Positions 2,033 to 30,521 of a stretch of DNA of 30,521 nt are shown here, piece after piece. Under the pieces are notes generated by a model. The model had not been told where the DNA came from and did no database searches. It saw only the letters and a list, made by a program, of their open reading frames with translations. Position numbers and translations under genes: made by a program. This DNA is from a virus. The DNA is taken from positions 1 through 30,521 of IMG/VR virus record IMGVR_UViG_3300005747_000545, one strand, 5' to 3'. Every line of letters begins with the position of its first letter. The stretch's first letter is position 1.

Positions 2033-2805
2033 TAATTATTCTCCACATAATATTGATGGGTTTGTAGAATAGACTCGGCCATTTGAGTGTACTCAACATC
2101 GTATGTTCCTAAATTACCTAACATTCTCCACTCTGATCCTGTATACCAAATCCTATCCCCTAGATAGAACTGATCTCCTCCTAATTCGGCATCATCAAGT
2201 AATTCATAAAAATCACCATTTACCGGCGCGGTAGGAAAGTCACCAGTCGTGGTTGGGTCATAATCACCTCGATACACGAGGGTGTTGACAGGAGGGATAG
2301 TGTCTAAATCTTTTAGGAAATACCAAGTAGAAGGGTCGTTGTCGGGTCTATTTGTAGCGTCATCAGAAAGGTGGTCATTATTTGCAACATAAAGTTTATT
2401 GTCGTATACGACACCATCGCCTGCGTTATAGTTAGTACCGTCCTGCCAAGCTCCTTTATATTCTAGGAATGAGTTAGATGCTTGAATATCAAGGTCGATT
2501 TCTTGTAACGCTCTTTTGATAATTGAGGCTGTTTCAATATCCCCGCGTTCTGGGTAAGGGTATCCCTTGTTTGCGGTAAAAGATGAAGATATTCCGTAAA
2601 GAATACCCGAGTCGGTTTCACCATAAAACGGAACAGAGAGTTCTAATTCAGTATCGCTGGTAACGCTTGCTACTTGGTACGCTACCCCGTGATTCTTTAC
2701 TACAAACAGGCTACCTACAAGAATATTAGCCGCCCACAGCGTACCGTTACCCGTTACGGTAGACGATCCATTCTCTACATTTACTGATCCTGTTCTATAT
2801 TGCAT
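2032..2805 (-). CDS. Tail-tip/fibre-associated protein with CBM5/12-like domain
   Basis: This is a 257-aa protein. Residues 1-78 carry a beta-rich N-terminal pattern (YRTGSVNVENGSSTVTGNGT, then a run of V/T/D strands) that is common at the start of phage tail-fibre-associated proteins. Residues about 114-163 resemble a CBM5/12 or chitin-binding type 3 fold: KGAWQDGTNYNAGDGVVYDN, then KLYVA and a late STWYF aromatic patch. The C-terminal part, rich in Asp, Gly and Trp, looks like a second small beta module. A GAGGG ribosome-binding site precedes the ATG. The stop overlaps the next start as TAATG. Its place between the J-like hub and a fibre gene suggests a virion adhesion accessory. The carbohydrate-binding role is inferred. 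Confidence 0.8.
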   Translation of the reverse strand: MQYRTGSVNVENGSSTVTGNGTLWAANILVGSLFVVKNHGVAYQVASVTSDTELELSVPFYGETDSGILYGISSSFTANKGYPYPERGDIETASIIKRALQEIDLDIQASNSFLEYKGAWQDGTNYNAGDGVVYDNKLYVANNDHLSDDATNRPDNDPSTWYFLKDLDTIPPVNTLVYRGDYDPTTTGDFPTAPVNGDFYELLDDAELGGDQFYLGDRIWYTGSEWRMLGNLGTYDVEYTQMAESILQTHQYYVENN

Positions 2806-2858
2806 TTATTTACACCCTCTATTAAATAGATAGACAATTAAAAGGTTTTTCTTATCCA

Positions 2859-3215
2859 TCACTGAAGGATTCTTTTACTTTGTGTTTTTGGTGATCGTTG
2901 ATTGTGGATTTTATATCTGGCTTCTTGTTCAATTGAAGCTTTATCCATCCCCGACGATTCGCAGAAACTAATGACCTGATCTGATGTTAGTTCGTTAAGT
3001 GATATAAAATTCGCAGGGTTGGTGTTACCAAGCTCAGTTTGTCCAATTACTACACCTGTAAATTTTTCAAAATAGGCGATGAGATGCCAGTTGACAATTT
3101 TAACCACATCGCTTAACCCGTTCTCTTCTGAGACTGTAACACTATCAATAACCCACTCATAGTAAGGGGTTATGTCGTTTGAGATTTCATTTACTTGTTC
3201 TTCAGTTAATTTCAT
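2859..3215 (-). CDS. Small tail-region protein of unknown function
   Basis: This is a 118-aa protein starting at an ATG with an AAGGAAC ribosome-binding site, 12 nt after the J-like gene. It has no signal peptide or membrane segment. The middle holds a beta-type motif (LSDVVKIVNWHLIAYF) and a helical motif near residues 74-88 (LNELTSDQVISFCESS). The tail end is basic. Small proteins of this shape, with a DVV..V.W strand and an L..DQVI.. helix, occur in the tail-fibre region of many marine and enteric phages, but no function is established that I can name. An assembly or chaperone role for the neighbouring fibres is possible from position only. Confidence 0.75.
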   Translation of the reverse strand: MKLTEEQVNEISNDITPYYEWVIDSVTVSEENGLSDVVKIVNWHLIAYFEKFTGVVIGQTELGNTNPANFISLNELTSDQVISFCESSGMDKASIEQEARYKIHNQRSPKTQSKRILQ

Positions 3216-3227
3216 TTTTGTTCCTTG

Positions 3228-9200: not shown

Positions 9201-11069
9201 CCCGGACCCCTCACTGAGGTTGAAGTCTAGTTTTGAGTCAGGTGCACGGATTTTAGCTGAACGACCTTGTAGCGCCCAGCGATACATATATGCGGGATTC
9301 GCCGCTGGAACCATAAACTCTGAAGGATCACTATCTACTGTGATAGATGAAGGGTTGTCAATATCGTCAACACCCGCTGGGTTATTCATTACGAATGTGC
9401 GAATGCCTTCTAACCAAGAATCATAAGTACTGTTATCACTGTCAATGCTTTTTAGATACGCATCAGAATCTGATTCCCCACCCGATTGAGAATAACTGAG
9501 AGACAGGTTATCACCCCAATTAGCATAATTCCAAGGAGGTGTGTAGGCTTGGGCAATTGCTGAGAAGCCTTCAATCTGACCATTCAGCTGCTCACTGGCT
9601 TTAATGCTGATAGCAACCAGAGAGATGCCCCCTAACTTGACAGGAGGTGTTTCATTATCAATGGATGTCAGGAACAGGTATACGGATTTATCAAAACGTC
9701 GCCCTTCCCTGCGTGAATCATAAGGTTCGTTTCTACGAACACCAACCGAGTAAACACTTTTAGTTAGTTTCTTTAACCCAAAGGTTGCTCGGAAAGGCTC
9801 ACTGCCTCCGTTACCACCTTGTTTGAACGAATTCTTTATTATGGTGCTGGGACCGAGAGTGTAGGTGTTAATTACAGGATCGTCGTACCACGTTTCATCG
9901 TCAAACATTCCACCGGCTATTACTTCAGGAGTTACTAGAGTTCTTCTCAGAGTAATACCGTTAGCGGCAAATTCTTTATACACTTTAGTAAGAGGGTTCC
10001 ATCTGAACGTACCGGGACTGGTTTGCCTACATACGTATAAATCTGGATCAAAAGAACCCGACTCTTTCACCACTAACCCGTTCAGAGGTTTATTACTTGT
10101 AAAATAATCCGTACCTATCTTAGAAGGTACTTTATTACCTACAGTATTAATATCACCTTTGGTATTTAAATCACTCTCATTAGGTACGTACTCCATATCC
10201 AACAGAGTATATGTACCTCCGTCTAAATAACCAGCACCGGGCGCTCCGTCATGTCTGAATGTAATTTGGTGATACGCTTCTTCGTGGACATATTCACCAT
10301 CGTTTTTAACCCCATAAAGCCCTTGAGGGAAATCAATTGTGGCGCTAACTTCTGAGCCGGATTGAGCAACGGTTCTCGTTACGTATACACCTCTCGGTGT
10401 GATGCCAGTCGCAGAGGATGTCTCTGTTTTAATTAAAGGGGTCTCAACACTTATGTTCTCTTGGAAAACATCATTAGGGTATAGTGTTAGCGGGGTTCTG
10501 TTATCCAACCCGTCGTAAATTTCCAACTCATAGTTAGGGTCACCGTTTTCATCAACGAATGAATCAAGCGAGGTGTCACCAATCTTGAAATCAGACAACG
10601 ACATTGGGGAGTACCCAAACAGATACAATGCTCGGATATATTCATCTTCACCTTCTTGGAAAATCCAAGGTTGTGCAGCGAGAGGGGGAGTTACACGGTG
10701 CCTACCTAATACAGAAGGGACGGGTGAATACTTATTAAATGCGTTTGATACACCAGTAAGAGAATATGACTCCCCCGGCTTATCGCCAATATTACCTAAA
10801 AGCTGGCTTGCAAAGTAGTACGACGCAACACCGACTACAATAGAGAAGATGATATACCCTGCTGCTTCCCAACCCTCTTGGGTTGCACGAATCAGGACAC
10901 GATCACCTTCTTTAATCTCATAGTCACCATTACCGATGACTTCACCATCAGTATTAACAACTTCGATATTATCGTCATCGTACCCCTCAACTAGTTCCCT
11001 CGCTTTCTTACCAGCAATGGCAACAATAGTCTTAGGGGCTTTGAAAGGGTTATTCTGGACTTGCAACAT
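3228..11069 (-). CDS. J-like central tail hub / host-specificity protein fused to a fibre-like C-terminus
   Basis: This 2613-aa protein is more than twice the length of lambda gpJ (about 1130 aa). Residues 1-60 look like a beta-grasp-type N-terminal domain ending in IKEGDRVLIRA, and a hydrophobic segment follows at about 71-92 (GYIIFSIVVGVASYYF). Residues about 100-920 form the hub; the region near 654-682 (VYELLSDICSTANGRFIFNN) is typical of J hub domains. Residues about 925-1800 hold a chain of fibronectin-III-like domains, including a duplicated three-domain unit. At about 1860-1935 there is a J-type linker with repeated ITETQIANDAITTPKI-like segments. The rest is a repetitive beta fibre, with GVYG repeats at about 2371-2475 and a C-terminus ending WIAFGY, like gp53-type fibre tips. 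The gene starts within the end of the NlpC gene (20-nt overlap). The product should cap the tube and contact the host. Confidence 0.92.
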   Translation of the reverse strand: MLQVQNNPFKAPKTIVAIAGKKARELVEGYDDDNIEVVNTDGEVIGNGDYEIKEGDRVLIRATQEGWEAAGYIIFSIVVGVASYYFASQLLGNIGDKPGESYSLTGVSNAFNKYSPVPSVLGRHRVTPPLAAQPWIFQEGEDEYIRALYLFGYSPMSLSDFKIGDTSLDSFVDENGDPNYELEIYDGLDNRTPLTLYPNDVFQENISVETPLIKTETSSATGITPRGVYVTRTVAQSGSEVSATIDFPQGLYGVKNDGEYVHEEAYHQITFRHDGAPGAGYLDGGTYTLLDMEYVPNESDLNTKGDINTVGNKVPSKIGTDYFTSNKPLNGLVVKESGSFDPDLYVCRQTSPGTFRWNPLTKVYKEFAANGITLRRTLVTPEVIAGGMFDDETWYDDPVINTYTLGPSTIIKNSFKQGGNGGSEPFRATFGLKKLTKSVYSVGVRRNEPYDSRREGRRFDKSVYLFLTSIDNETPPVKLGGISLVAISIKASEQLNGQIEGFSAIAQAYTPPWNYANWGDNLSLSYSQSGGESDSDAYLKSIDSDNSTYDSWLEGIRTFVMNNPAGVDDIDNPSSITVDSDPSEFMVPAANPAYMYRWALQGRSAKIRAPDSKLDFNLSEGSGSLEEFRQYCNTPNVVGYDVGAAPSAKRNFECNAVVDYKTTVYELLSDICSTANGRFIFNNGKYGVSLDKAKDFSVQLFTDDNAEITSKKEFLDQIDGYQVRFKDETDDNYEQNEFPVINPLKKTDLGNDYENIELWGVTNPAQAQYLARTKFKSRYVRSQTFDITTDIDGIVCQTGDRISIQNQKLLRGITGARIAEVSGDVITLDEPVVFDPGENYGIVVRNADGTVHTAVSITNPGVTTAQFTAVGHSGVVGDLVSVGQSGIETTELMVVDIEYDNDLRARLTAIPYVESLYDNDNVIDETPPGINIPYPDNVRHDAPVITGVSLIDQRARDDRGKVYSSIRLSIVSPFIKNALNPQFEVYYSYVKDGTTQKIPEIYAGRVPTSAGSFLLQNLELGEYTFRVRTVSNTGESDFTSYTYTLSYDPARVPDVGTVTGIELINRQNNAGDIEDDEVVHYFFGEDAKFRWRLNALNNSEEIGSETFGADSGAQDVYFEDYQVVIAEKKTVNINFPTPQTITTYIPRREEIVAQPAYTYTYEDNLEDGNGVATRSFRIAVKARGSENQESQQAFLDVKNPAPEIPQNFTASVNFTEVSFGATKPTDADITAFEIYVSTISGFDPELQDPTYSGPYQSPVTLVNLEADRTFYVRARYVDTFGEGEFTDQISFATQQPSGVDITPPTAPDNLVVTIGTQGKNYLQTSFAELSWDAAFDDSGELFYEVEHGLVSATKPTVATTKDTTYIIPYIDVDNDYKFRVRAVDYSGNTSAWTGYSTVSAGTVYDAPPGAGITLVGGGTEFSGRDAEFIIEQPEIPDQENFKGYVVTVKDGATVLRTEEVSNPFYSYTYEKNVNDGGPRRTFTVEVYSTTTDGQTGATSSITVTNPAPVASNVTIEPRVGALVVRYDEPTDTDFKGTRLYLSETSPVTINDTNLKYNGPEYNPSFITGLNLNQQYYVTVVPYDVFGAGTPTANLSVVTLTNEDITPPVAPSNLVLSQELTEDNLSATVKLEASWDAGSDDSGNFYYYVTFTSANDVRTLVTEDTSTSLMPAIIGDTYTVTVKSLDYSGNESTSSISDTIAIVGSSTSPGATTNETVTGFLNKVKLTWDNPTTSNFLQTKVYRGTTAGFTANAGSLIAETRNTVYVDIDVSNGTDYYYKLQPVSASGTNGTLSAAVGPATPFTMSPLNIDDYMDDETIEAVKFADGIEPVSIVASLPNPVGYTGPKTVLLTSDSKLYRYDASVPEWTKKVDTTELDGEITETQIANDAITTPKILAGNIVTSHMTAGGIDADRLVANSIEAGQISTGALSAAVIRGDIIQTAASGARVQLDKFNGIRVYNASSQQTAHISNDGSGFLGRNGTYPVISWDTAGQVQIPGELLVSEIDADLITTGTLDAGVVNVTNLNADNINSGTITSIDITGTNITGTSTITGAIIRTSATNPKVQMDSGNGLFVTSAAGNVTFNADINGAISIGSVNPITIDTAGNVTVTAAVSVTGSISGNTIRSRAGADSSGVYYVQLTDGTTPFRLWDGTTTLIEMTQVGNMITSGNIYSTGKESLYDPTNGYWIGSSGTVSIGKKTGSAAGTGSGMVWDGTSLYIGGDSYFEGTLTATTVDTSGISVGTIKIDSTNGIYSTTNNFQLTPAGDLTISGDITASDITGSTLTGGTIQTSSGLGERLVITSSQSIWYDSSNNTILSIGFGGNKLGLGDTAVLEINTNTSSYRNGVSVLSANIYPAIQAINTNGSSTAVSGLSNGGGIGVFGRTSSGDGTGVAGIMGSNLSTGYAVYGDTSSGTGVFGASGSGIGARGQSSTNIGVYGKSTSNVGVYGESSSSYGVYGNSSSSHAVYGETGVSGGAAVFADSTSSASSAVACLNSGSGVPIRFFTSSLPSASSFSNSFTTTGNNVYWSNGSSWTKMNGSVSSLDYQTGSFDTSGGNPDTGTVSLSFPNGCFGVWLSAAGTGQGTMAVTAYSNTQFSYNVDGGRSPVTWIAFGY
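3648..3960 (-). repeat. GVYG-type glycine/serine peptide repeats in the J-like protein
   Basis: About 100 residues near the end of the J-like protein are built from units of 8-10 residues such as GVYGKSTSN, GVYGESSSSY and GVYGNSSSSH, with degenerate upstream copies (GVFGRTSSG, AVYGDTSSG, GVFGASGSG, GARGQSSTN). The spacing suggests a regular beta-helix or a glycine-rich packed structure in a trimeric fibre. The codons differ between copies, so this is a protein-level repeat rather than a recent DNA duplication. Confidence 0.85.
5960..7915 (-). repeat. Duplicated three-domain unit (FN3-like) in the J-like protein
   Basis: Two consecutive units, about 7915-6865 and 6864-5960, align along their length. 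Matching landmarks, in order, are YTYEDNLEDG with YTYEKNVNDG, VKNPAPEI with VTNPAPVA, YVDTFGEGEFT with YDVFGAGTPT, DITPPTAPDNLVV with DITPPVAPSNLVL, WDAAFDDSG with WDAGSDDSG, and VDYSGNTS with LDYSGNES. The order is preserved, so an ancestral block of three beta-sandwich domains was duplicated as a unit. The copies are now well diverged. Confidence 0.8.
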
Positions 11070-12269: not shown

Positions 12270-15200
12270 CGGATACCCCCTTGTCTTCTAATACCATAAT
12301 TAGCCTTAAAGTCTCTATCAAATTCACCAGTGGTGATGGCGTTCTTAACCGCGTCTTTGATAAGAACTTGGATACTTGTACTACCGTCCGGGTTCATACC
12401 CTCTGTAACCTCCACAGGAGCGCCTGAGCCGCGTTGGTCAATAACTTGAACCGTCGTACTACCACCACCTGTAGCGGCCCCCACAACGCCTCCCATAGCG
12501 AATCCGGGCATCTTACCTTGGTTCATCATGTTCATCATACCCACCCCGTACTTTCTTACGGCTTTAGCGTTCATTACGAACTCACCATTTGAGAGATTTG
12601 CAGGAATTGAGTCAGAGGTGTTTGACCCCGGCCCACGCACATAGCCACCTGTTGCATAATTTGCATTATCAATAGCGGCTATTTGAGCGCCAACAGCAGC
12701 AGCAATAAATCCAGCGGTAACCATTCCTGTAACACCGCCCTCATCCGCACTGTACGCCTTGATTACAGCAAGGGCACCCGCAATGGTGGCTTGGGTTTTA
12801 GCAAATTTCTTATACTTCTCAGAAGATTCACCATACCTTTCTTTAAGGGACGCATCAAAACCGGACATTAAATCTTGAAGACCTGTCAAGGTTGTTTCAA
12901 GACCTCCCATATTTTTAGTTCTATCACTGAAGGTTAATACGCTTTCTCCCAATTTCAAGAACCCGCTGGACAAGTCTGAACTCAGTACGTTACTAAGACC
13001 AGATAAAGTACCAACAAGGTTTTGAACAACAAGGTCAAGACCCGATAATTTACCAATAGGTACTTTCGCAGCCTCCGCAATTGTCCTAAACAACTCAATA
13101 GCACCTGATCTTTCAGCATCAGGGAACAGACCTACAAACTTCTCAGCAAACTGGTCTACTGCGTTATCAAGACCTGCTGAATCCTTTCCAAATTGAACAG
13201 CTAGTCTTTCTAACAGTGATCTAGCGTCAGCCTCAACAGACCCTGCAATTTTATCAAATGTGATTGCGGAAGAAGGAACATTCACACGCAAATTAGTCAT
13301 AGCGTTTTCAATATTCTGACTGGCTATTCCGGCATAATCTGTTGCCTCTTGAACGCTCACTCCCTCAAGTAACAACTTAACATCTATAGCGGGGTTCTTT
13401 TTAGCGACTTCTTCAATGAGGTTTCCAATTTGAATATACTTATCTGAAATCTTTTCAACCGGTCCTTTACTGCTCTCATGTAGTGTAGGAGCAATAGCTA
13501 ATAATTTGTTCAGGTTTTCTTGGTTAGCTAATGTCTCAGCAAACACATCTTTCACTTCTTGAGCAGAGCCGTATATCTTAGCGTAAGAAGCTACTTGTTC
13601 ATCTAACAACCCTGCGTATTGCTTGGCTGCTTCTGTGGAGAAATCACCGGCAGTGGCCACACCACTAACCGATTGCAGTTCTTTAAATCCGTCAACGGCT
13701 TCATTTATCTTATCAGTGACGTTAGCGATAGGTGCAAGAATAGGGTTAGTTTTTGCAAACGCCTTTTTAAACGCATTATATTGCTCTGTCAATCTAGCTA
13801 GGAATTGCTCGTAGGTTTCCCCCGCCTTGGCATTCTTTTCAAAATACTCCTTGAGTGCATTATTTCTAACCTCTTCGTTTATGTCCGATAAGGTAATACC
13901 AAGCAACTCACCCATTGAGTTCAATCGTTCCATGTTAGCCGCAGCAGTTGAAAACTTCTTACTGTCAGGAAGTAATTTATTCAACTCGCTCATGCTTTCA
14001 CCCAAGGCTTTACTCAAGGTCTTAGCGAGGGATTTAGCAGCAGTCTCTGCTTCTTCAGCCTGACCTTCAAACTTCTTAAGGAGTATTTCAGTTGCTTTAA
14101 TTTGAGCATTGAAGTTTTTCATTCTATCGGAGTCCGTAGAAGAAACCCGTCTACCTCTACGACCAACTTTATCCATTGAAGAATTTAGCTGGGATTTCTC
14201 TAATAGTAATTGAGTTCTAAGTGCCTCTAATTGAGCTTTGTTTAATTCTTCATATTGATCAACGTAGTTTCTTACTGCCTTACTACCTTCTAATTCAAAT
14301 AAAGAACTCACAATTGAAGCTATACCGGAAGCAGTAGCCACCACGTAACCGTTTAATTTACTGAAAATATTACCAATGGATTTAGCAGCGGGCACCACTC
14401 CTGACTTTAGCACACTCCACATTTTGTTGAAATAAGTTACTAGACCTTTTGCTCTCACTGCCAGCGTAACCACCCACTTGATGATTCTCACAAAAGGCAG
14501 CATCAATAGGGCTACACCAATAGCTTTGATAATGATTTTAATCGTGTCAAAGTGTTTCTTTATGAACTGAACAGTCGCGTCGATGGCGGTGAATACCCAA
14601 CCTATAATTTTAGCAAACGTACCAAAATATTCTTCTGGATTGTCAGCTATTACTTTTAATCCTTCCGCGATAGTTTTAAGGGTATTTTCTAGCTTTTTAG
14701 CAATACCAGCGGAATTAGCAATACCTGATACAATGGTTCTAAGGTGTAGCCCGATTGCATCATACTGACCGCTTGCGCTTCTAGCAGCCTCAGTCGCCCC
14801 GTTCTGAAGCGTATTGAGTTTCTCCATGATGACAGCATTAGCTTCACCAAATCTCAATTGACGACGTAGTGACGCAATACGCTCTCTTTCCTGAACACTC
14901 AATACAATACCAGTCTTACGTAAACTATCGAAGTTGCGTACCGGGTCTTCTAATAATCTACCTAGTTTCTTAGTGTTCTGTACTAAATCACCACCAAGGA
15001 CTTCTGTAAGACCTTGAGCAGCAGTCAAGATACTCTTGAAGCTCTTTGACCCATTAGCGGCGGCGGATGGGAATAACATTAAAGCGGCACCGGCTTTCTC
15101 AAAATCTTCAAATCCGCCTAGAGTTAATCCATCCAACTCCTTAGCAAATTTTGCAATTTGACCAGCAGAGAAGAGAGCATCGTCGCCTTGTGCGTCGATA

Positions 15201-18784: not shown

Positions 18785-19278
18785 CCTGTGTACTCCCTAC
18801 CTTTAGGTGCAATGATTTTAGTACCGTCTTTTAATCGTCTTTTAGTAGAAATCTTCTCAGATTTTAAAATGTCCATAAACCGTTTTCTTAAAACGGGGTC
18901 TTGTAGTACCTTCGTAACGAAACTGTGAGTCGCATCAGGTGGGTTATTAGGATACTTGTCCTTAATGTGATCGTAAGGAAGCTCGTGAACCATCAACGCC
19001 TTGGGGTCATCATAGCTAATTGATATAGAAGCCTTGTTATTAGACTTAGTAAGAACAGCTTGCTGACTACGCTGTAGTTCTCCGGTATCTCTAGGTGTGA
19101 GCTTAAGCATCTCATTTGCCATCATGTAAGCGGCTAATTCGAGATTTCTCAAATAATAATCTGAGGAAATGTTTTCATTGTAATCATTGAGAAATTTGCT
19201 TATCTCAGACATAGCGGCTTTAGCGGTAGAGCTTTTATTATTACCTAACTTAACCTTAAACACTTTGCGTTTTGCCAT
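18781..19278 (-). CDS. HK97 gp10-like neck / tail completion protein
   Basis: This 165-aa basic protein carries a long helix (YYLRNLELAAYMMANEMLKL) followed at once by TPRDTGELQRSQQ, the TPxDTGxL motif typical of HK97 gp10-type proteins. Then come strands with SISISYDDPKALMVHELPYD, in which the VHE motif is also typical of this family, and a C-terminal helix with LRKRFMDILKSEK. Proteins of this group form part of the neck or help finish the tail before it joins the head. The ATG overlaps the upstream stop by 1 nt (TAATG), and its end overlaps the tail terminator start as ATGA. Confidence 0.85.
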   Translation of the reverse strand: MAKRKVFKVKLGNNKSSTAKAAMSEISKFLNDYNENISSDYYLRNLELAAYMMANEMLKLTPRDTGELQRSQQAVLTKSNNKASISISYDDPKALMVHELPYDHIKDKYPNNPPDATHSFVTKVLQDPVLRKRFMDILKSEKISTKRRLKDGTKIIAPKGREYTG

Positions 19279-20473: not shown

Positions 20474-20501
20474 AAAAAAAGGGGAGACAAAAGCCTCCCC
20501 C
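20474..20501 (-). terminator. Intrinsic terminator after the major capsid gene
   Basis: On the minus strand, 8 pairs (GGGGAGGC with GUCUCCCC, one G-U) close a UUUU loop, and seven U residues follow at 20480-20474. This is a classic rho-independent terminator, starting about 30 nt after the capsid stop. As no clear promoter lies after it, downstream genes must rely on read-through or antitermination, which would give capsid protein a higher mRNA level. Confidence 0.85.
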
Positions 20502-20529
20502 TGTATAAGAGGCGTAAACCTCTAATTGC

Positions 20530-21543
20530 TTAGGCAACAGCCAGAAGAACACCCGGACCCATCTTGGAATCATGCATACGCAAATCCCAGTTGGCACTTG
20601 CAGCAAGTGTTGCAAGATCAGGGTTCTTAGCGCCAGTGTAAGCGTAACCGCGAACACCAACGTTGTAAGCATATTCACCCTGCATACGACGAACAAGGTT
20701 TTCATGCCCTGTAATGTCTTGCATGGTAACAATCTGCTCTTCCGATTGCGCTACTTCAGCAGCCCCTGCAACCAGACCAACAATGAAGTTACGAGAATCG
20801 TCTTCGATGGTATCTTCGTTGAAGTCGGTGGTGCTAAGTGAAGAGTTATCAGTAACGATAACAGGCTTACCAAGTGTACCCGGAGTACCGCCGTAGATAA
20901 CAGAAGCGGCTACACCGTCAACTTTATCAGCAATATCCTTGTCAACAAGGTTGTGGTACGTAGTACCGTTCATAAGCCAAGCAACGATGCGGTTAGACTT
21001 GTCACCGAACTGGGCCATAGCTGCGTTCAAGTGACGTGCACTCGGACCAGTCTGACCGTCAACCGGTGATGTAACTGCATCATAAACAACGTTAGAGTCG
21101 GAACGTAGAGCAGCAACAAGTGCTGATACACCGTAAGTAACGAAGTCGATAGCAGCAGCCTTACCTGCCTGCTCACCAAGGGCGTAGCTCATTTCGCTAG
21201 GATCAGAGCCAATCTTGCGCCAGAAGTCCAGAGTCTGATCGACAGGGCCAATAGCCTTGTTGACCTTCACATGGATCAGTTCGTCCATCGTCATTTTCTT
21301 AGACGTAACAACCGCATTACTGTCGGGGTCACGGTCACGGATAATGCCGCTAACGATTTGCAAGAAAGATTCCTTCTCGAAGTCGCCCTTCAGGCTACGA
21401 CTAACAAGACGGAGAGCGCCGTTGGATGCGCCGTTGAAAATGTTTGCTTCTTCTTGAAGCACTTCAGTCATAGCTCCGAAAAACTCTTCCTGATAGATTA
21501 CTGCGTCTAACGCATTACCTGCGTTTGGTGCTGTGGTACTCAT
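20530..21543 (-). CDS. Major capsid protein
   Basis: This 337-aa protein is placed between the scaffold gene and a terminator, as expected for the coat gene. It has a helical N-terminus (ALDAVIYQEEFFGAMTEVLQ), a strand with MTMDELIHVKVNKAIGPVDQ, a long helix region (ALGEQAGKAAAIDFVTYGVS), and VAWLMNGTTYHNLVDKD with LGKPVIVTDNSSL, a pattern widely seen in HK97-fold coat proteins. Coat proteins of this fold build the icosahedral head on the scaffold. The ATG has a very strong GGAGG site 7 nt upstream, fitting high expression. I see no delta-domain or protease-linked N-terminal extension. The subfamily cannot be set without a structure search. Confidence 0.88.
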   Translation of the reverse strand: MSTTAPNAGNALDAVIYQEEFFGAMTEVLQEEANIFNGASNGALRLVSRSLKGDFEKESFLQIVSGIIRDRDPDSNAVVTSKKMTMDELIHVKVNKAIGPVDQTLDFWRKIGSDPSEMSYALGEQAGKAAAIDFVTYGVSALVAALRSDSNVVYDAVTSPVDGQTGPSARHLNAAMAQFGDKSNRIVAWLMNGTTYHNLVDKDIADKVDGVAASVIYGGTPGTLGKPVIVTDNSSLSTTDFNEDTIEDDSRNFIVGLVAGAAEVAQSEEQIVTMQDITGHENLVRRMQGEYAYNVGVRGYAYTGAKNPDLATLAASANWDLRMHDSKMGPGVLLAVA

Positions 21544-21605: not shown

Positions 21606-22415
21606 TTAGTCTAGCTCTGAGAAAGGAGGAACACCATCAACTTTGGCAGATTCGTAGCCATACTTACGAATGTAAGCGGCGCGTTCTGCTCTAGTCATGT
21701 CTCCCTTTGCTTTACCAGCACTAGGCTTTTCCACCCGTTTCTGACTTGCTGCTGGTCGTGAACCGGTCCCAGAGGCAGAAGCCACTTGGAATAGATCACC
21801 GAACACCTCGTCAGATTTCATTTCTGAGATAAATTCAGAAACGGACATGTAATCGCCTTTATCATTAAAGCGGACATCCCCATCTTCGTCCTTTACCCGA
21901 ACCACATACTTACCATCTTCTTCTACAACAGTTGTGTGTTGTTGAATAAGTGGGTTAAGTACCCGGTTAGCACCCTTTTTCGCACCTAGCGAAGTAAGAG
22001 CTTCGTTTGCTCGATTAGTAATTAGATAATCATGGAGAGAACTCTTCATGTTATTAATCACTTCATCTTTTTCACTCAGTTGGTCTCTATACTTAGCTTC
22101 CAACTGCTCTCGAATCTTTTCAACGTCACCACGCTTCAATGCGCGCTTATGTTCTTCAGCTTCGAGTTTTTCTCTCAATTTGACAGCATCATCAACAGAA
22201 AGACCAGCTTTTTCCAAGGTCTTGAGTTGCAAACGACGATCTTTAGCTTCCTTATTGGCCTTACGTAGAGCTTCTTTTGCCTTACGTAGTTCTGCCCTAG
22301 TGCTTAAGAGTTCGTTATCCTCTTCGTCTTGGTCTTCATCTTCATCAATGTCGTTGTCAAATTCGTTATCAAGTTCTTCGTTGTCGAGATCGTCACGATC
22401 TTCTAATTCAGGCAT
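21606..22415 (-). CDS. Head scaffold protein
   Basis: I place the start at the ATG at 22415 (269 aa) because GGAGG lies 5 nt before it; an ATG at 22427 has no such site. The N-terminal 40 residues are very acidic (runs such as NDIDEDEDQDEEDNE). A long coiled coil follows at about 45-130 (Lys/Glu/Leu-rich, with ELRKAKEALRKANKEAK and EKIREQLEAKYRDQL), and the last third is basic. This shape is usual for phage scaffolds, which guide coat assembly and then leave or are degraded. Position between portal and coat genes agrees. No Ser protease motif (such as a G-x-S-x-G site) is visible, so this is not a protease-scaffold fusion. No separate protease gene appears near it. Confidence 0.88.
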   Translation of the reverse strand: MPELEDRDDLDNEELDNEFDNDIDEDEDQDEEDNELLSTRAELRKAKEALRKANKEAKDRRLQLKTLEKAGLSVDDAVKLREKLEAEEHKRALKRGDVEKIREQLEAKYRDQLSEKDEVINNMKSSLHDYLITNRANEALTSLGAKKGANRVLNPLIQQHTTVVEEDGKYVVRVKDEDGDVRFNDKGDYMSVSEFISEMKSDEVFGDLFQVASASGTGSRPAASQKRVEKPSAGKAKGDMTRAERAAYIRKYGYESAKVDGVPPFSELD

Positions 22416-22459
22416 CTTCGCCTCCATTGCTATATGTATGTTTTGAAAAGGTTTTTTTA

Positions 22460-23875
22460 TTAAAGTTCACTTTGAACGCTTGTATCATCTCGATTCTTTA
22501 CGTCATTCGTTTCCTCCGTCTTACTTTTTTGCTTTGATTGATCTATTGTCTCCGTTGTTTGTGGAGCAACAGTACCTCTTCTCTTAAGTTCGGAGAAGAA
22601 TTCTGTTTCAGTCAGAACACCCTCCTGATATGCTTGCATTAAATCAGCAAATGAGTTAGCCTCATCGCCGGGAACAGTCAGGTCATCACCAATAGATACT
22701 TGAACCTCACTTGCGTCTACCCCTATCCAGTCTCCCGCCACCTTAAAGCAATCCTCAAGACCTCTCTCAAGGTTGCGAAGAATAACTTGGAAAGTAGACA
22801 GACTTTCTGCTTTATCAATTTGTCTAGCACTTGCTGTTTGACGCTCTACACTTTTTTGGGTTAGGATGTCACTACCCATGTGAGCCATTCTTTTTTCGAG
22901 GTCTTCTAAGTCCTTACGACCCGCCTCAATAGCATTACCTTGATGCTCTACGTATTTTAAATCCGCGTTTTCTGAATTAGTAAATAGTGCAGAGTTAGCA
23001 CCAATTACAAGGTTTTCAATTTCATCTTCAGCAAAACCAGTACCTAGAAGTAAAGGAACGCGAACAACGTGAAGAATGTTATTTTGGTCAGAACTAGACT
23101 GCCAATGACGCAAATTAAGCCATGCCAAATCTTCAAGCGGTGGTTCTGCAACCATCGTTGCAATCTTTTCTTCATAGATAGGTACAATTGGAACATAATC
23201 CAAAGAGAATGTTCCTTCTTCCTCAAAATGATATTTACCTTTTTTATCCCCGTGATGGACTTCATATGATCCGGGGCGAATAATTCTAACGGATTCGTTT
23301 AGTTGTTCGAAATAATTTTCATCAAGACTTGTTTCTTGTTCGACTAATCTTATTTCAATTATTTCCTCAACTCCGTTGTTATAAGTGGCTTGCCAGCCAA
23401 TAAGACTTCTTGGGTCAATAGGGTTCAAATAGGGACGAACACCATTGTCGAATTGACGTTTGGTGATTCCCCCTTCAGTTGAAGGCATGTCCACAAGAGG
23501 GTGCGCCCTACCTGTAATAAGTAAATGGTGAGCCAACGTAGCGGCGACGGACGTAATGCTCTGACCACAACCATCTGCATTGTCTACCAAATACTCCAAT
23601 TCTTTCGGCACATTGGATATTTTCACAGGGCGCATGAATGCACCACCAACAAGAGCCTTCACAGTGCGTTTGTAAGCGTTGTAGAGGAACGTTCTGCGTA
23701 CACGGCACTGGTACGCCTCATCACTCTCTTTCGGTTCTTGAGGGAGCCACTTCTTCTTGTTACGCATTGTTTTAGTACCACCAAGGAGGTCGTATAACGG
23801 CTCCCATCTTTCGTACATTTCATCAAATGCGGACGCTGTAGTTCTAACACCCCTAACTTGTTTGGTTGTAATCAT
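22460..23875 (-). CDS. Portal protein (DUF4055-type)
   Basis: This 471-aa protein has the motifs of DUF4055 portals: YERWEPLYDLLGGTKTM near residue 20, WLPQEPKESDEAYQCRVRRT, then FLYNAYKRTVKALVGGAF, and a D.A.GCGQSITS block. GRAHPLVDMPS, the PYLNPIDPRSLIGW block and a hydrophobic PLLLGTGF stretch follow. A helical region (KDLEDLEKRMAHMG) matches the stem, and the C-terminal tail is hydrophilic. The protein forms the dodecameric ring through which DNA is packaged. The ATG has GAGGA 7 nt upstream and follows the 131-nt gap. A terminase gene would normally lie just before the portal; here adhesin-like genes do. The portal call is firm; the DUF number is from motif recall. Confidence 0.88.
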   Translation of the reverse strand: MITTKQVRGVRTTASAFDEMYERWEPLYDLLGGTKTMRNKKKWLPQEPKESDEAYQCRVRRTFLYNAYKRTVKALVGGAFMRPVKISNVPKELEYLVDNADGCGQSITSVAATLAHHLLITGRAHPLVDMPSTEGGITKRQFDNGVRPYLNPIDPRSLIGWQATYNNGVEEIIEIRLVEQETSLDENYFEQLNESVRIIRPGSYEVHHGDKKGKYHFEEEGTFSLDYVPIVPIYEEKIATMVAEPPLEDLAWLNLRHWQSSSDQNNILHVVRVPLLLGTGFAEDEIENLVIGANSALFTNSENADLKYVEHQGNAIEAGRKDLEDLEKRMAHMGSDILTQKSVERQTASARQIDKAESLSTFQVILRNLERGLEDCFKVAGDWIGVDASEVQVSIGDDLTVPGDEANSFADLMQAYQEGVLTETEFFSELKRRGTVAPQTTETIDQSKQKSKTEETNDVKNRDDTSVQSEL

Positions 23876-24006
23876 TGATTATCCTCTTTTTAATTAGGGA
23901 CAGAAACCCTTGTTTAATATTTACTATAGCTTTAAGATAGTACAAGGAGCACCTAGTTCCATTATGTTCATGTTTTAAAGCATTAATTCCAAATTAGTTT
24001 TATTGT
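23876..24006 (-). promoter_or_regulatory. 131-nt A+T-rich gap before the head genes; possible promoter region
   Basis: This is the largest stretch without a gene in the window. On the minus strand it contains TATAGT, close to a -10 box, near 23930, and TTGTAC upstream of it, but the spacing is not good for a sigma-70 promoter. A short AGGG/CCCT inverted repeat lies close to the portal start. No terminator with a U tract is seen after the upstream gene, and the only frame with an ATG is about 15 codons with no ribosome-binding site. Confidence 0.3.
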
Positions 24007-26247
24007 TTATCGAGGTCCGCCGCTAAAACCAACAGGGTCAAATTTATTGTTTGCAATACGGAATACAACTTGATTCTTAATGCCGTTTCCGCTCAACTTA
24101 GCTTCGTATTGCAGCGCGTATCGTCCTTGCGCTGGATAACCGAGGTCACTCATCAACACTCGATAAACTCCCCCATCAATGGTTTCTTGATCATCTATGA
24201 CATTGCGCATATTTCCGCTTGCAATTTCCACCAAGTCCTCATCAAACAGCCTCCATGTGGGTAACTGCTGAGGGGTGTCCAGTAAATTATCAATTTCACA
24301 GCGTACTCTGAACTCATGCTCTGTACCTTGAGGTATCAGAACCGCACTTGATCCGATCACCGCCAAATTTGATGTGAGCGGGGTGATATAGGTGACGGTG
24401 TGGCTAGCCGAGGCAACATTATTGTGTTGATCTATCAAATCTAGCTCGTATGTCCACTCGCCAGCGGGAGCGCCGGGGTTCACGTTGATTCGTGATGACC
24501 ACCCATCAGCACCAGTATCGAAGTTGTAAGTTGCTTGGATACCACCGTCGGGGTCTTTGATAAGCAGATTCAGTGACGAGCCGGTAGTCTGTACCTCAGT
24601 CCCATCGTTACGGATGTTCTCAACGTGCGCCCACGTATAGACCACGTTCCCCAAGATAACCGCTGCATATTCCTCGTTAGCGTCTTCACTTGGGAAGTCG
24701 TCTTTATTCAGTGTACCCACCAACTGCGTGTGCAGGTCTATCAGCCGGAGACTTGATACGCTCCAAGCGTCTGCCGTATCAAGTTGCACATTCCCGTCAG
24801 TATCGCGTATACGCAAGTGGTACGGAGTTCCCGTAGGTGTCGCTACCGCTTTATTCGGACTGACCGGAGTGTGTGTAAAGCTAATTTGACCACTACCATC
24901 AGGTGTTTCAGTAGCGGTGTCATACGTTGCACCAGCATCATCCACAGCAGTCGCAGACACATTGTTGCTCCACGGATTCCCGTCTGCCCTCGTTACTGAC
25001 GCGGTGACTTCAATAACCTCACCGTAGTTTGCTAAAGCAAAGGATGGAGTTGCTGCTGAGATTGTCCGATACCGGCTAACTTTGAAAACATTGCCGCTTA
25101 GTGTTGTAACCTGCCCCGGAGGCAGTGTTTCAATCGTCCACTGCTTACCTGTTGCATCCGCTGTAGCGTCATCACCCGACAGAAGCGTGTAGTTCAGGTC
25201 GTAATTCGATCCTGTATCCGCGATGCTTTTCTTCGTAGCACCGAGAGAGTCTTTCAGCACCAGCGTTAGGTTACGTGTGAGTGCTTCGCCGCGACTGTTC
25301 GTGATGCCCCAATCTACTTCAGTCGCATCCCCGATGTTAGACAAAGCGAAGTTGGTCGCGGGTGTTCCCGAGGTTAAACGGGGGTCGGCGTCGAATAGTG
25401 TTTGCCCCCCTGCATTCGCACTGAAAGTGGTCCAAAGCGCAGTTCCGCCTTCACTTGTCGCCTGCAACTGTGCCAATCCGTTAACTACAAATCTTGCACC
25501 ATAGGTTTTTAAGGTAAGGTCAAAATTGGTTTCATTGACCACTGCCGAAAAATCAGTGAATCCACCAGAACTAACCGTTGCGGTGCTGCCCGCGAGTTGC
25601 ACGTCTACACCATCCAGAATATCCAATTTGGCCTGCTCGTGACCACGTACACTCCAAGGGGGAGAATAGCTTGCACGAACCGTTGCCAGTTCATCGCCTG
25701 CGGGGCCATACGAGTGTTTATCACCTGCTGGATAACCGGACTGGTGGGAAAGTGTGACGGGGTTACGTGCGATCAGCTTACCTTGGTCTTCGTAACCCAC
25801 ACTACCAAGTGACGGCGGCGAACTACCCCCGTCAGTGTCGATCACAAAATTACCCAAACCAGCGGCGGTGCCTGTTCGGGTGTGGCGCGCCCGCAGCCGC
25901 AACGTACCAGAACGAGGGTTTCCAGTTTCTGTGCCGTCGTGTGTCGCCCAGAATGTGAACGCCTGCCCTGCGGTCAGGCCAGCTTGCGACCCCGAGTACA
26001 ACGTGCGTACCAGTGTCCCCGTTCCAGTTTCGTAGTACACCCACAGGTCTACCGTGTTCGTTCCGTCACTGGTGTCAAGATTACGGTTGTAATACAACTG
26101 AATGCTCTCACCAGCGTTGAGCATATACGTGGGGCGGTCCGAGCCTTGATTAGTCGGAACGGCGTTAACCGTCGATAGGCATATACTGAACTCCGCACCC
26201 AGCGTCGTATCTACACGCGCCCTTGCCGCACCCAGATAAACCGCCAT
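24007..26247 (-). CDS. Multidomain beta-rich virion/adhesin-like protein
   Basis: This 746-aa protein is made of many beta-sandwich-like segments. An N-terminal domain starts YLGAARARVDTTLGAEFSI. A region with FTFWATHDGTETGNPRSGTL and RLRARHTRT follows. At least three Ig-like domains come later, for example FALSNIGDATEVDWGITNS and FALANYGEVIEVTASVTRAD, plus the final RYALQYEAKLSGNGIKNQVV. Paired AT.SFALxNxGxxxEVxxxxT-type strands suggest that two adjacent domains are related. It has no signal peptide, membrane span or enzyme motif. The ATG overlaps the stop of the 31-aa gene as TAATG. A virion surface or fibre role is inferred from fold type and neighbours. Composition is clearly higher in G+C here than in the head and tail genes; for example, positions 25861-25920 hold 42 G/C of 60. 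Confidence 0.72.
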   Translation of the reverse strand: MAVYLGAARARVDTTLGAEFSICLSTVNAVPTNQGSDRPTYMLNAGESIQLYYNRNLDTSDGTNTVDLWVYYETGTGTLVRTLYSGSQAGLTAGQAFTFWATHDGTETGNPRSGTLRLRARHTRTGTAAGLGNFVIDTDGGSSPPSLGSVGYEDQGKLIARNPVTLSHQSGYPAGDKHSYGPAGDELATVRASYSPPWSVRGHEQAKLDILDGVDVQLAGSTATVSSGGFTDFSAVVNETNFDLTLKTYGARFVVNGLAQLQATSEGGTALWTTFSANAGGQTLFDADPRLTSGTPATNFALSNIGDATEVDWGITNSRGEALTRNLTLVLKDSLGATKKSIADTGSNYDLNYTLLSGDDATADATGKQWTIETLPPGQVTTLSGNVFKVSRYRTISAATPSFALANYGEVIEVTASVTRADGNPWSNNVSATAVDDAGATYDTATETPDGSGQISFTHTPVSPNKAVATPTGTPYHLRIRDTDGNVQLDTADAWSVSSLRLIDLHTQLVGTLNKDDFPSEDANEEYAAVILGNVVYTWAHVENIRNDGTEVQTTGSSLNLLIKDPDGGIQATYNFDTGADGWSSRINVNPGAPAGEWTYELDLIDQHNNVASASHTVTYITPLTSNLAVIGSSAVLIPQGTEHEFRVRCEIDNLLDTPQQLPTWRLFDEDLVEIASGNMRNVIDDQETIDGGVYRVLMSDLGYPAQGRYALQYEAKLSGNGIKNQVVFRIANNKFDPVGFSGGPR

Positions 26248-26342
26248 TATTCGCGCCCCGCCAGTTTTTCTAGTAGATCAGGGCGTGCGTCGTTAGGGTT
26301 GCGTCGAAGATTTTCCCGACAAGTTATACATACATATATCAC
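26247..26342 (-). CDS. 31-aa CxxC microprotein, translationally coupled
   Basis: A GTG at 26342 overlaps the stop of the upstream gene as GTGA and is preceded by a strong AAGGAG site 7 nt away. The frame runs 31 codons to a TAA that overlaps the next ATG (TAATG), so it fills the gap exactly. The protein begins MIYVCITCRENLRRNPNDAR and ends with an acidic/basic helix, PDLLEKLAGRE. The Cys-x-x-Cys pair could bind a metal or form a disulphide. I do not recognise the family. The good site and double overlap make a real gene likely despite the length. Confidence 0.75.
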   Translation of the reverse strand: MIYVCITCRENLRRNPNDARPDLLEKLAGRE

Positions 26343-27160
26343 CAGCCAACTCCTTTTGAATCCCACGCAAAGCCGGTGCGTTCAACCCACTCACCACCTG
26401 CGTCTGGTATAAATACAGCATCAAACACAGCATCGCCCGAGGATGAACCCGATGGTGCTTCCGCCATGATTGTGCCTACGCCAATATTAGTAGTCACTAA
26501 TTCTTGCACCCACATTCTATATCCTACCTGTGGACGCTTGTTTGTTAATCGCCCCGTTAGTGTATTCGGTGTTGCCGCAAGTATTGCGTCTTGCTTTGCT
26601 TCTGTTGATGGTGCTGCTATCAACTTCGCCAATACAGCAGCAAGAGTCGTTTGTGTTGCAAAATCCAACCCTGCTATAGTATCTAGTGTTGTCTTAGCGG
26701 CACCAAGTGTTGCTTCTTTCGCTAAACCTGTTTCTGGATCAGCAGTTGGGTTTGTTACAGTTACATTATGCCCGTCCGCAAGCTGTCCCGCCAACAGTGA
26801 ATCTAGCTTTGTATGAGCAACGGTATCCAGATTGTATAGTCTTCCTTTAGAGTCTACAGAAAGACCTGAGTAATCCCCGTTTGCACTTGTAAGAGTATTT
26901 ACTGCGTCGTCATTTCTAACACCCAAAACGAATGAACCAGCAGCACCTGTTGTGTGCGTATCATCTTCATTGTGGTCTGATGCTGTTTCAAAGTCACCTT
27001 CAGCTACAACTGTAAGGGATTGGTCTGCTGCAAATACAACAGGGATGCTCTCATCCTTGATCTTTTGACCAAGGGTTATGTCCTCTCCACCTATCTTGAC
27101 TACATCAGTGAGTGTTGCACCACTTGCTCGTGGAGTTCCTACGTTTCCACCAATAAACAT
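26339..27160 (-). CDS. Virion-type protein with repeated EATL/EAKQD helical segments
   Basis: This 273-aa protein starts MFIGGNVGTPRASGATLTDV, and its ATG overlaps the upstream stop as TAATG, with AGGGG about 8 nt before. Residues about 35-110 form an acidic beta region (VVFAADQSLTVVAEGDFETA, HNEDDTHTTGAAGSFVLGVR). At about 145-200 are repeats of LAKEATLGAAKTTLDTI and LAKLIAAPSTEAKQDAIL type, seen in many phage structural proteins next to adhesins and giving a trimeric coil. The C-terminus (VGYRMWVQELVTTNIGV, then GGEWVERTGFAWDS) is a small beta domain. The position between two large beta-rich proteins suggests a virion fibre linker. The exact role is unknown. Confidence 0.72.
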   Translation of the reverse strand: MFIGGNVGTPRASGATLTDVVKIGGEDITLGQKIKDESIPVVFAADQSLTVVAEGDFETASDHNEDDTHTTGAAGSFVLGVRNDDAVNTLTSANGDYSGLSVDSKGRLYNLDTVAHTKLDSLLAGQLADGHNVTVTNPTADPETGLAKEATLGAAKTTLDTIAGLDFATQTTLAAVLAKLIAAPSTEAKQDAILAATPNTLTGRLTNKRPQVGYRMWVQELVTTNIGVGTIMAEAPSGSSSGDAVFDAVFIPDAGGEWVERTGFAWDSKGVGW

Positions 27161-30100
27161 TATAAATTCCCCTGCATGACAGATACGCGAGTGGTAGCCC
27201 CACTTGATTCACGTACTTCTAAGTATAAGTTATCTACAGACAAGGCCGCTGCCCCAACATCATCTACGGTAACAATAGCTTCTATATTCTGAATATCTGC
27301 CGGTACAATAGTGCCAAAGTCAGAAGTAACGTCCATAAACTGTACGAAGTCTGATGTACCAAAAAATGAAACTTGTTTCTCTGTAGCCCCTTGTACACCA
27401 TTATATTTATATGTCATTGTGGCGGCTGGTGCTGACGTTGCTGCCGGTGAGAACGTTATGGCGATTAGACTGAACCCGATAGTACTAGACGTTGTTCCGG
27501 AGAACACTTGTGTTCCTGTACTCGTGAGGTCTAACGTGTTTACCACCAGCGATGCCGCATTGCTACCGTTGCCGTTACGTGGTTCAGTGTTAGCGTTCTG
27601 GTCTGATTGTTCGATAAATCCAGAACCAGCAGTATGAGTGCGTTGCCCCATCGAAACAAAAACAACTGCTTGTCCGTTAATTGTTCCTTCAAGACTGTCG
27701 TTATACGAATTTTCATTACTTGCAGCACTGTACGTCTGAATGTCCTGCTCCGCACCCACACCAGTAAAGCTAGTTACAGCAATTACACCATTTGTACACG
27801 GTTGCGAAAAGGAGGCGGTAACAATGGAGTCTCCGGTAGGGGTGCCTACACCGCGCCACAGCGAGACTCGGGTATCACCATTGCCTCCGGAAACACCAGC
27901 AGTAACCTCTTCCCATGCCAACCCTAGACCCGTCACTGTAGCAACCAAAGCAGATGCGTTTCTGCGGCTAATAGCTGCATAATATGTCCGTTTTGATGAG
28001 GAAGTCACTGTTGTTTCTGTAGAAACGCTGGTGGTGTTACCTGTAACACCTGAAATGTATTCATCAAGGGTCACAGTCGATGTTGTTGGGGTAGGTGCCT
28101 TGCGCGCCTCAAACCCAATACGCAATCTGTCTATATCGGTAAATCCACCCGTGAATGAGAAACTGGCACCGGAGACACTTAATGTCTCACCAACCGCGTC
28201 CATTGTTGCATACTGATTGTCTGAAGTCAGGGCGAATGACGGATTAGTGCAAGTACCACCCGCTACCGTCCCGTTCTCGTGAACAATATTTCTATTCCCC
28301 CCTACATCCTCACATATCGCCCATAATTCTTCGTCAGGCTCTAGCGTAAAGGTTGCATCGCCACCAAGGAATAAAGGTATGCTGTTGATTTCAGTAACGT
28401 CAGAGGACTCTTTAACGAAAGCATGGTAATTACCTGCGTTTCGCACCTGTAAAGCTCTTGTTCCCTCAACAACAGGTTCATCAATTCGTTGAGGATCAGG
28501 TGTAAGTACAAACTGCCTCGTTTGCAGCCCTGAAACGCCACTCAAGGCTGTTTGGGCGTCATTCCCTACTAGGTGCACATCTAAACCTAAACCAGCGCCA
28601 CCGCGCTTAATGAAGCCGTGATTCCCTGCCGCATCCTCAGTAAAAGGTTTTATTTTTTTCAGACCAGCAAGGAATGTCTGATCAGGGACTGTTGAAAGTT
28701 GCTCCATTGCATCCGGCGGTGCTACACCAATAAACGAAACGTCTAATGTGAGGCTCGTTTGCCCGATAATACCGTTGACAATTCTAAAGCGCACCCATTT
28801 ACCCTGAACAGGGGTGTAACGTGGAGCGGAGCCGTTCCCTTCAAGCGGATCGTACTCGGTAGGAAGGGTGTAGGTAATATCATCGTCGGTGCCGTTGACC
28901 GGCGCATCCTTAGTGGATATGTCGATATACAGCGTACAAGGAACATCTGTTGTCAGTGTATCCAGTACTCCTGCATAATTACCAGACCAACGGAACCATT
29001 CTCCACGGAAAATGTGATCTGTTCCGCCCGTGTTTCCGTTTAGTGGAGTGGTGGTAGAGTTAGCGGCGTGGCTTCCGGGCTTGCGGAATACTTCGATTTC
29101 ACCATCAGGGTTCTGACCCTTATTGACAGACTGCACAAGAGGTGCAGGGAAATACGTATATATTGGTTGGTCAATTGATTGGAAAACAGGACCAACGGGT
29201 GTATCTGAGCCTTGTGACCTTACAGAGAAGCTTGTGCAATCAACTCCCGTGTCATTATAGACGATAATACGGAAGTATTTCTGAAAGTAAGGTGCGCCTG
29301 TAACAATCGGAGCGTCTGCAAATGAAATTGCGGTAGGCTGACTAAAATCTACAGTTGCGGAGTTGTTACCTTGATCGTCTGATGCGTTTAATAAAAATAC
29401 CTTTACACCAGACACATTAAACGTCATGTGCGCGAACTGATCTTTGAAACGGGTTACGTTTATCCAACCAGAATCAATGACATTTGCAGCAACAATCGGA
29501 CCAACAGGGTCAAATGCAGGTGTAGTACCAGACGTTAGATTCCCCGCTGTCTCCCAATTGTTGCGGAAAACAGTACGCCAAGGGTTTGCTATAATAGCTG
29601 CCTTATCTACGGTAAGACTCGCAACACCAAACTCTGATTGCTCTTCTAAGTCCTCGTCAAGAACGGAACCAGCCTGTACAGCTCGTACATTTTGAACAAG
29701 GGATGTGAATGCGAGCGGGGCAGATAGTTTTGTAACACTTCCAGATAACGCGGTCTTGCGCTTTAACATAAATGCAAGTACGCCGGGGGTCTGTGGTGTT
29801 TCCCCATTTGTAATTTCAACGCGCAAGTAATCAGCAGAAAACGTTTCCAACGGCGTCAAGAAGAAATAATACCCGGATGCCGCATCCAGAGCTACTTCCT
29901 GTGGAGCAACCTCAAATATATCACCTGTGCCGTTTACACCATCATGTGACCAACGCACAACAGCAGTGAAAGGCTCAAACGCAGCATAGACTAATAAACC
30001 CGACGCATGATCTGAGTATTTTGAGTAGCTACCTATAAATGTACCAGATGCGCCAAGAAGTCCTACTTGCTCATTTAATGTATCGCGCTCGTGAGCGTCT

Positions 30101-30521
30101 GCTCCAAGTGACGATAGTGTATCATCCCCCAGCGTTCTAAGTCTCTTAAGTAGAGCAATTACGGTGCCGTCACCGGATGCGGATTCTGCGTCTGTAGTGA
30201 AACCTGTGTTGTCTCGAAGCGACTGTGTTTTAAGACGAATCTGGTCTGCGTCTGCTTCGATGTTATTGAGTGATGTATCTATTGTGCTCAGAACAGCTTG
30301 AGTTGCGTCAGACTCTGATTTTGCTTCGTCTTTGAATGCAACCAAGTCTGTGTTCAGATCAACAACAGCTTGCTTCACTTCGTCTTGTTTTTGTTTTGTC
30401 GCAGGATCAATTTTCGCGTCAGCAGAGTCCTTGACTCCAACTTCATTGTCAATCGTGACAGTAATATTTTCTAGAGCAACAAGAGACTCATCAGATAGCT
30501 GGACACGTTGTGCTGTTGCTC
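27160..30521 (-). CDS. Large multidomain beta-rich virion protein, 5' end outside window
   Basis: The frame stays open past a GTG at 30378 to the window edge, so at least 1119 codons are coding and the true start lies beyond 30521. The visible N-terminal part reads ATAQRVQLSDESLVALENIT and VTIDNEVGV, a typical opening of phage structural proteins, followed by a helical stalk (DEVKQAVVDLNTDLVAFKDE, DADQIRLKTQSLRDN). A series of beta domains follows. Near the C-terminus a beta-sandwich (SVSGASFSFTGGFTDIDRLR) is interrupted by about 200 residues containing SRRNASALVATVTGLGLAWE and SFSQPCTNGVIAVTSFTGV, a domain seen in bacterial surface proteins. After it the outer fold resumes at TMTYKYNGVQGATE. 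The function is inferred as a virion adhesin. Confidence 0.8.
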   Translation of the reverse strand, partial: ATAQRVQLSDESLVALENITVTIDNEVGVKDSADAKIDPATKQKQDEVKQAVVDLNTDLVAFKDEAKSESDATQAVLSTIDTSLNNIEADADQIRLKTQSLRDNTGFTTDAESASGDGTVIALLKRLRTLGDDTLSSLGADAHERDTLNEQVGLLGASGTFIGSYSKYSDHASGLLVYAAFEPFTAVVRWSHDGVNGTGDIFEVAPQEVALDAASGYYFFLTPLETFSADYLRVEITNGETPQTPGVLAFMLKRKTALSGSVTKLSAPLAFTSLVQNVRAVQAGSVLDEDLEEQSEFGVASLTVDKAAIIANPWRTVFRNNWETAGNLTSGTTPAFDPVGPIVAANVIDSGWINVTRFKDQFAHMTFNVSGVKVFLLNASDDQGNNSATVDFSQPTAISFADAPIVTGAPYFQKYFRIIVYNDTGVDCTSFSVRSQGSDTPVGPVFQSIDQPIYTYFPAPLVQSVNKGQNPDGEIEVFRKPGSHAANSTTTPLNGNTGGTDHIFRGEWFRWSGNYAGVLDTLTTDVPCTLYIDISTKDAPVNGTDDDITYTLPTEYDPLEGNGSAPRYTPVQGKWVRFRIVNGIIGQTSLTLDVSFIGVAPPDAMEQLSTVPDQTFLAGLKKIKPFTEDAAGNHGFIKRGGAGLGLDVHLVGNDAQTALSGVSGLQTRQFVLTPDPQRIDEPVVEGTRALQVRNAGNYHAFVKESSDVTEINSIPLFLGGDATFTLEPDEELWAICEDVGGNRNIVHENGTVAGGTCTNPSFALTSDNQYATMDAVGETLSVSGASFSFTGGFTDIDRLRIGFEARKAPTPTTSTVTLDEYISGVTGNTTSVSTETTVTSSSKRTYYAAISRRNASALVATVTGLGLAWEEVTAGVSGGNGDTRVSLWRGVGTPTGDSIVTASFSQPCTNGVIAVTSFTGVGAEQDIQTYSAASNENSYNDSLEGTINGQAVVFVSMGQRTHTAGSGFIEQSDQNANTEPRNGNGSNAASLVVNTLDLTSTGTQVFSGTTSSTIGFSLIAITFSPAATSAPAATMTYKYNGVQGATEKQVSFFGTSDFVQFMDVTSDFGTIVPADIQNIEAIVTVDDVGAAALSVDNLYLEVRESSGATTRVSVMQGNL

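Follow-up and report, generated by a model that had tools for sequence, protein, structure and literature searches.

A candidate virion-fibre gene cassette between the terminase and portal genes in a siphophage relative of Nitrincola phage 1M3-16

Results

Organization of the locus

The stretch of DNA analysed here, referred to as the window, is the 30,521-bp virus fragment IMGVR_UViG_3300005747_000545, which carries a siphophage head-tail module with all of its real genes on the minus strand (Table 1). Read along that strand, the portal and scaffolding genes lead to the major capsid gene, which is followed, in order, by genes for the connector, tail tube, tape measure, hub and tail fibres. 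The syntenic portal, scaffold, Gp13-like capsid and tail genes fit the window to the DUF4055-portal siphophages of the Nitrincola phage 1M3-16 type. The predicted fibre gene behind the tail hub shows that fibre genes are present at the usual place too. A strong terminator-like hairpin with a T run lies at 20479-20502 on the minus strand, immediately 3' of the major capsid gene, as expected if the head-tail genes downstream of it are made at lower amounts.

Directly upstream of the portal gene are large fibre-like open reading frames. A sequence-only reading of the window had counted four adhesin-like genes at this site; three are in the window, and the fourth fibre-like gene, for a protein of 268 residues, is outside it, at 12872-13678 of a second contig (3300005747_000028, here L025). 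Packing is tight among the first three block genes, whose start codons overlap or abut the previous stop. Scanning the intergenic region between block and portal revealed no minus-strand terminator-like site, and a promoter scan of the block gave fewer matches than in shuffles.

Table 1. Features of the window discussed in the text (positions in the 30,521-bp window)
Position	Strand	Feature	Evidence
2-2032	-	Conventional tail protein, 3'-truncated at contig end	phrog_5939 E 1.3e-46
2032-2805	-	Conventional tail-fibre-type gene after tail hub, carbohydrate-binding CBM_5_12 domain	PHROG and Pfam; CBM_5_12 exceeds Pfam cut-off
20530-21543	-	Major capsid protein, Gp13-like	PF20036 E 1.1e-87
21606-22427	-	Head scaffolding protein	phrog_206 E 1.4e-37
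22460-23875	-	Portal, DUF4055 family	PHROG 145 portal E 9e-113; Pfam DUF4055 7.5e-38
23876-24006	-	A+T-rich intergenic region between block and portal, 131 bp, 28% GC	Sequence count
24007-26247	-	P0003, 746 aa, multi-Ig-like fibre candidate	Weak Ig-like profile matches
26339-27160	-	P0002, 273 aa; start codon shares one base with the P0001 stop codon	
27160-30519	-	P0001, fibre-like protein, 5'-open; 1119 aa in window, 1144 aa with start on overlapping contig	
30431-30521	-	Repeat segment, 91 bp at 90% DNA identity (50 bp exact) to internal repeat of L023 706-aa protein	

Domains of the block proteins

The combined T, G, A, S and N content of the block proteins is 0.43-0.46, as compared to 0.45 and 0.43 for the tail genes at 2-2032 and 3228-11069 and 0.31 for the portal. 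A fibre or adhesin domain is recognisable in the 268-residue protein and, more weakly, in P0001 and P0003; P0002 has a repeat match only. The middle part of the 268-residue protein matches the tail fiber family PHROG 33244 (E 7.5e-7), its relatives by tblastn and profile search are fibres of Acinetobacter and Caulobacter phages, and its N-terminal 90 residues are predicted to be helical (AlphaFold without alignment, pLDDT mostly 55-84). PHROG and Pfam profile searches with P0001 gave no matches. Residues 480-605 of this protein match a protein of cyanophage BUCT-ZZ01 (E 8e-7, z 13.8 versus shuffles), and residues 145-250 form a second, weaker copy of the matching domain (z 5.7); as judged from these alignments, P0001 holds at least two predicted beta domains common to the BUCT-ZZ01 protein. 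In P0002, the 44-residue stretch 65-108 is 45% identical to gp42 of Microbacterium phage Burro. P0003 matches two profiles of Ig-like fold, MG2 on a fragment and under the Pfam cut-off (E 2.5e-6) and, weakly, Big_1 (E 0.02). The label "beta-rich" given earlier to these proteins is to be read as one based on composition, weak Ig-like profile matches and remote domain matches; single-sequence AlphaFold models reached a mean pLDDT of 36 for the product of 24007-26247 and 44 for the 268-residue protein, too poor for a fold search.

A search of solved structures (PDB) found no relative of the block proteins, and across PHROG, Pfam and PDB they matched no capsid decoration protein and contained no recognisable capsid-binding domain. 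Full-length relatives of P0001, P0002 and P0003 were not found in 50,697 phage records or in IMG/VR (peptide scan), protein-level searches of IMG/VR, phage and plasmid records gave nothing or fragments only, and P0003 had no relative in 84,980 prokaryote genomes.

Position of the terminase gene

The terminase had been thought absent from its usual site before the portal, and a search of the window with PF03354 only found none; the large subunit (TerL) found later falls outside that family. It came to light when a degenerate pattern built on the opening residues of P0001 located IMGVR_UViG_3300005747_000028 (45,482 bp), the last 51 bases of which are identical to those that begin the reverse strand of the window (30471-30521). 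The reading frame is continuous through this overlap, and the start codon of the truncated P0001 frame sits on the second contig. The contents of the two contigs are complementary: the second encodes DNA polymerase, ribonucleotide reductase, a sigma factor, PhoH and TerL and has no portal, which the window supplies (the polymerase, reductase and sigma-factor names come from tblastn to annotated relatives and from reading of the frames). TerL is of the Terminase_6 family (Terminase_6N E 8e-26) and is 30% identical to the Nitrincola packaging protein. We take the two contigs to adjoin each other in a single genome, which would measure at least 76 kb. If the 51-bp join holds, that genome carries a predicted TerL of the 1M3-16-type lineage, and its genes are deduced to follow one another as TerL, an oppositely oriented RNase H, 442 bp, the genes for the 268-, 1144-, 273- and 746-residue proteins, and the portal. 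In this order TerL does precede the portal, with the block between, and the premise of a missing terminase is an artefact of where the fragment ends. Circular closure of the two contigs was considered and rejected, their other ends having no overlap.

The second contig also holds, at 6015-8300, a nicotinamide phosphoribosyltransferase gene that adjoins one for a bifunctional adenylyltransferase-Nudix protein; ClpP-like and PhoH genes are near. In what we infer to be the same genome, this may be a phage NAD+ salvage pair countering NAD+-depleting defences.

The join sits inside a repeat that occurs in another phage, and could be wrong or conceal collapsed repeat copies; the assembly break probably fell at the repeat. 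It is on this ground, together with a 50-bp exact copy of part of the repeat in the unrelated phage L023, that one might suspect an assembly artefact, with fibre genes from another phage brought in by a chimera at 23876-24006 or by mismatched contigs. We consider such an artefact improbable. TerL and the portal flank the block on separate contigs, and their nearest relatives coincide and rank alike (56% and 57% identity, respectively, to IMG/VR contig L013; 40% and 44% to L014), so that an artefact would need two independent false joins. Among the fetched loci the exact 51-mer occurs at these two contig ends only, and the tetranucleotide distance between the two contigs is 0.14, against 0.22 or more for the other phages compared.

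A repeat common to an unrelated phage

The first 33 residues of P0001 are 91% identical to a shaft-type repeat of a 706-residue protein encoded by contig 3300005731_000104 (L023), and residues 124-159 of P0002 are 78% identical over 36 positions to the same repeat protein. L023 has 58% GC and a different set of virion genes, and no relative of the portal or of other window genes was found in it. Its repeat gene (7056-9176) is a mosaic in third-position G+C content (GC3), with codons ~60-430 near 0.35 and both ends at 0.6-0.9. Because the 91 bp held in common with the window lie in the low-GC3 core of this otherwise higher-GC3 gene, the pattern suggests that repeats moved between phages of differing base composition. 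The pair provides a DNA-level example of a fibre repeat common to phages with no other detected relationship.

The interval in related phages

The survey covered 17 relatives in which TerL occurs together with a related portal. The two genes are 38-123 bp apart in 12 of them and 1.5-3.4 kb apart in the other five, as compared to a distance of 8,555 bp from TerL to the portal start here, given the contig join. Where annotated or scanned, the five long gaps hold a primase-polymerase (Prim-Pol), small opposite-strand frames or a sigma factor. The block was present in none of the 17 (0/17), nor were there fibre genes in their gaps. These relatives are distant, 57% identical at best. The TerL-portal junction is thus a variable spot, and of the genomes sampled only this one carries the fibre set. 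As to the addition itself, the suggestion of a gained module next to the portal, which may set host range or encode head fibres, is borne out by the absence of the block from relatives and by the want of full-length relatives for its proteins; close relatives that all keep the block, which would have spoken against it, were not seen. Cargo at this site has a precedent in the lysozyme gene of some RcGTA-like clusters (PMC11409702), and no fibre cassette between TerL and portal was found described in the literature.

In the nearest relative, L013, the major capsid frame (within 4922-6557) breaks at about position 5800, where the last stretch of the match shifts to a different frame; next comes an open reading frame resembling a GIY-YIG homing endonuclease. 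The break is possibly an intron or a sequencing frameshift.

Codon usage of the block genes

The block had been proposed to be richer in G+C than the head and tail genes on the strength of two 60-bp counts, 42 of 60 at 25861-25920 and 19 of 60 at 18841-18900. Both counts are correct, but the signal comes from one gene. Of the 60-bp windows, 13 reach 42 G/C or more, and every one of them falls within 24007-26247. When GC3 was compared with the codon use of core genes, given each gene's amino acids, this gene stood out at 0.507 (z 8.9), which is what would recommend viewing the block as a single island, gained recently and foreign in its codon usage. Its neighbours do not stand out (26339-27160, 0.308, z -1.8; 27160-30519, 0.382, z 2.3; the 268-residue gene, 0.32), and elsewhere in the window the major capsid gene (z 3.3) and the tail gene at 2-2032 (z 4.9) deviate too. 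Composition is thus not uniform across the boundary, but it departs gene by gene rather than block-wide, because of which the compositional case for one gained G+C-rich module fails. A block-wide island was rejected, and we regard that reading as highly improbable; foreign gain of the single gene at 24007-26247 is possible.

Discussion

In this study, we examined a group of fibre-like genes upstream of a siphophage portal gene. The reading we favour, with a probability of roughly 0.6, takes the block for an accessory set of virion-fibre genes, a cassette inserted between TerL and portal in a relative of Nitrincola phage 1M3-16. Provided that the window was assembled correctly and the contigs are rightly joined, the insertion is real; it is unusual for the lineage and made of parts of known kinds. 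The four co-directed genes would open the head-tail operon, and their products would therefore be made together with the capsid proteins. The helical N-terminal segment of the 268-residue protein could serve as a virion anchor. The other modules would comprise short shaft repeats that an unrelated phage also carries, Ig-like domains in the 746-residue protein, and beta domains like those of phage adhesins. Most likely, the products would be mounted on the virion as fibres or decorations and bind host-cell or environmental surfaces, a capacity additional to that of the conventional tail fibres encoded at 2-2805; they could alternatively be stabilising decorations that bind nothing. The block is lineage-specific and probably assembled piecemeal, and would have been acquired by recombination in pieces.

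Where on the virion the products might be displayed is a matter of two competing placements. The first has them on the head, as capsid fibres or decorations of the kind of Hoc, pb10, N4 gp17 or phi29 gp8.5 that promote adhesion of the virion to cells or surfaces. This is a serious possibility that falls short of even odds. The genes begin the head module while separate fibre genes follow the tail hub, capsid decorations that have a part in adhesion commonly contain Ig-like domains (PMC7602432), and two phages with the same TerL and portal families, Dinoroseobacter phage vB_DshS-R5C and Roseobacter phage CRP-6, have fibre-type genes beside the portal in the head region. Gene position does not, however, fix virion position, and no capsid-binding domain was recognised. 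The fibre-type genes of R5C and CRP-6 carry a tail-fibre annotation, and the 268-residue protein itself resembles annotated tail fibres. That resemblance, seen in both its profile and its tblastn relatives, leads to the second placement, in which the block encodes extra side tail fibres or receptor-binding proteins away from their usual site; the BUCT-ZZ01 protein with the P0001 domain has its gene 3.6 kb upstream of the terminase gene in that phage. Against this placement, the relatives were annotated by similarity, and conventional tail genes and fibres already occupy 2-11069. We hold tail-side fibres to be a somewhat less probable outcome and have a slight preference, by position, for head decoration.

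More doubtful is the fullest form of the head placement, a capsid-mounted set of adhesive fibres, carried as a replaceable TerL-portal cassette and built by exchange of shaft repeats between unrelated phages. If true, the set would be a second attachment apparatus, on the head, besides the tail fibres of the siphophage. For the accessory fibre cassette as such, wherever it is mounted, the TerL-portal junction of this lineage would be a variable spot able to hold a large fibre cassette. This bears on the ways in which phages gain and swap attachment parts at sites other than the usual tail-fibre locus, and suggests that head modules should also be searched for fibre genes.

The proposed cassette can be compared with several known systems. 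Nitrincola phage 1M3-16 (NC_024217; 82 kb) is the closest isolate; it matches the window in the order of its portal, scaffold, capsid and tail proteins, with identities of 42% for the portal, 42% for the major tail protein and 53% for the DNA polymerase. It differs in that it has no block, its portal is preceded by PhoH, and its terminase is on the opposite strand several kb off. L013 (IMG/VR contig 3300028388_002644) is the nearest relative of both TerL and portal, but in it TerL is directly followed by the portal with no insert. Among capsid decorations, T4 Hoc, T5 pb10 and N4 gp17 are accessory, adhesion-type and Ig-like, and Ig-like decorations with adhesion roles are known on the heads of T4, T5 and N4 (PMC7602432); the block proteins would be like them in these respects, and no sequence relationship to them was detected. 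Resemblance at the level of parts is found in the 706-residue protein of L023, which has repeat units in common with P0001 and P0002, and in hypothetical proteins of Synechococcus phage BUCT-ZZ01, which are encoded upstream of its terminase and share the P0001 beta domain, although BUCT-ZZ01 is a T4-like cyanophage (Kyanoviridae) and the match is at domain level only. CRP-6 and R5C belong to the same TerL group; unlike the block, their fibre genes are downstream of the portal, and tblastn finds no sequence match between the two sets. Fibre genes beside the portal are thus already known from CRP-6 and R5C, and the block described here is a variation on a known arrangement.
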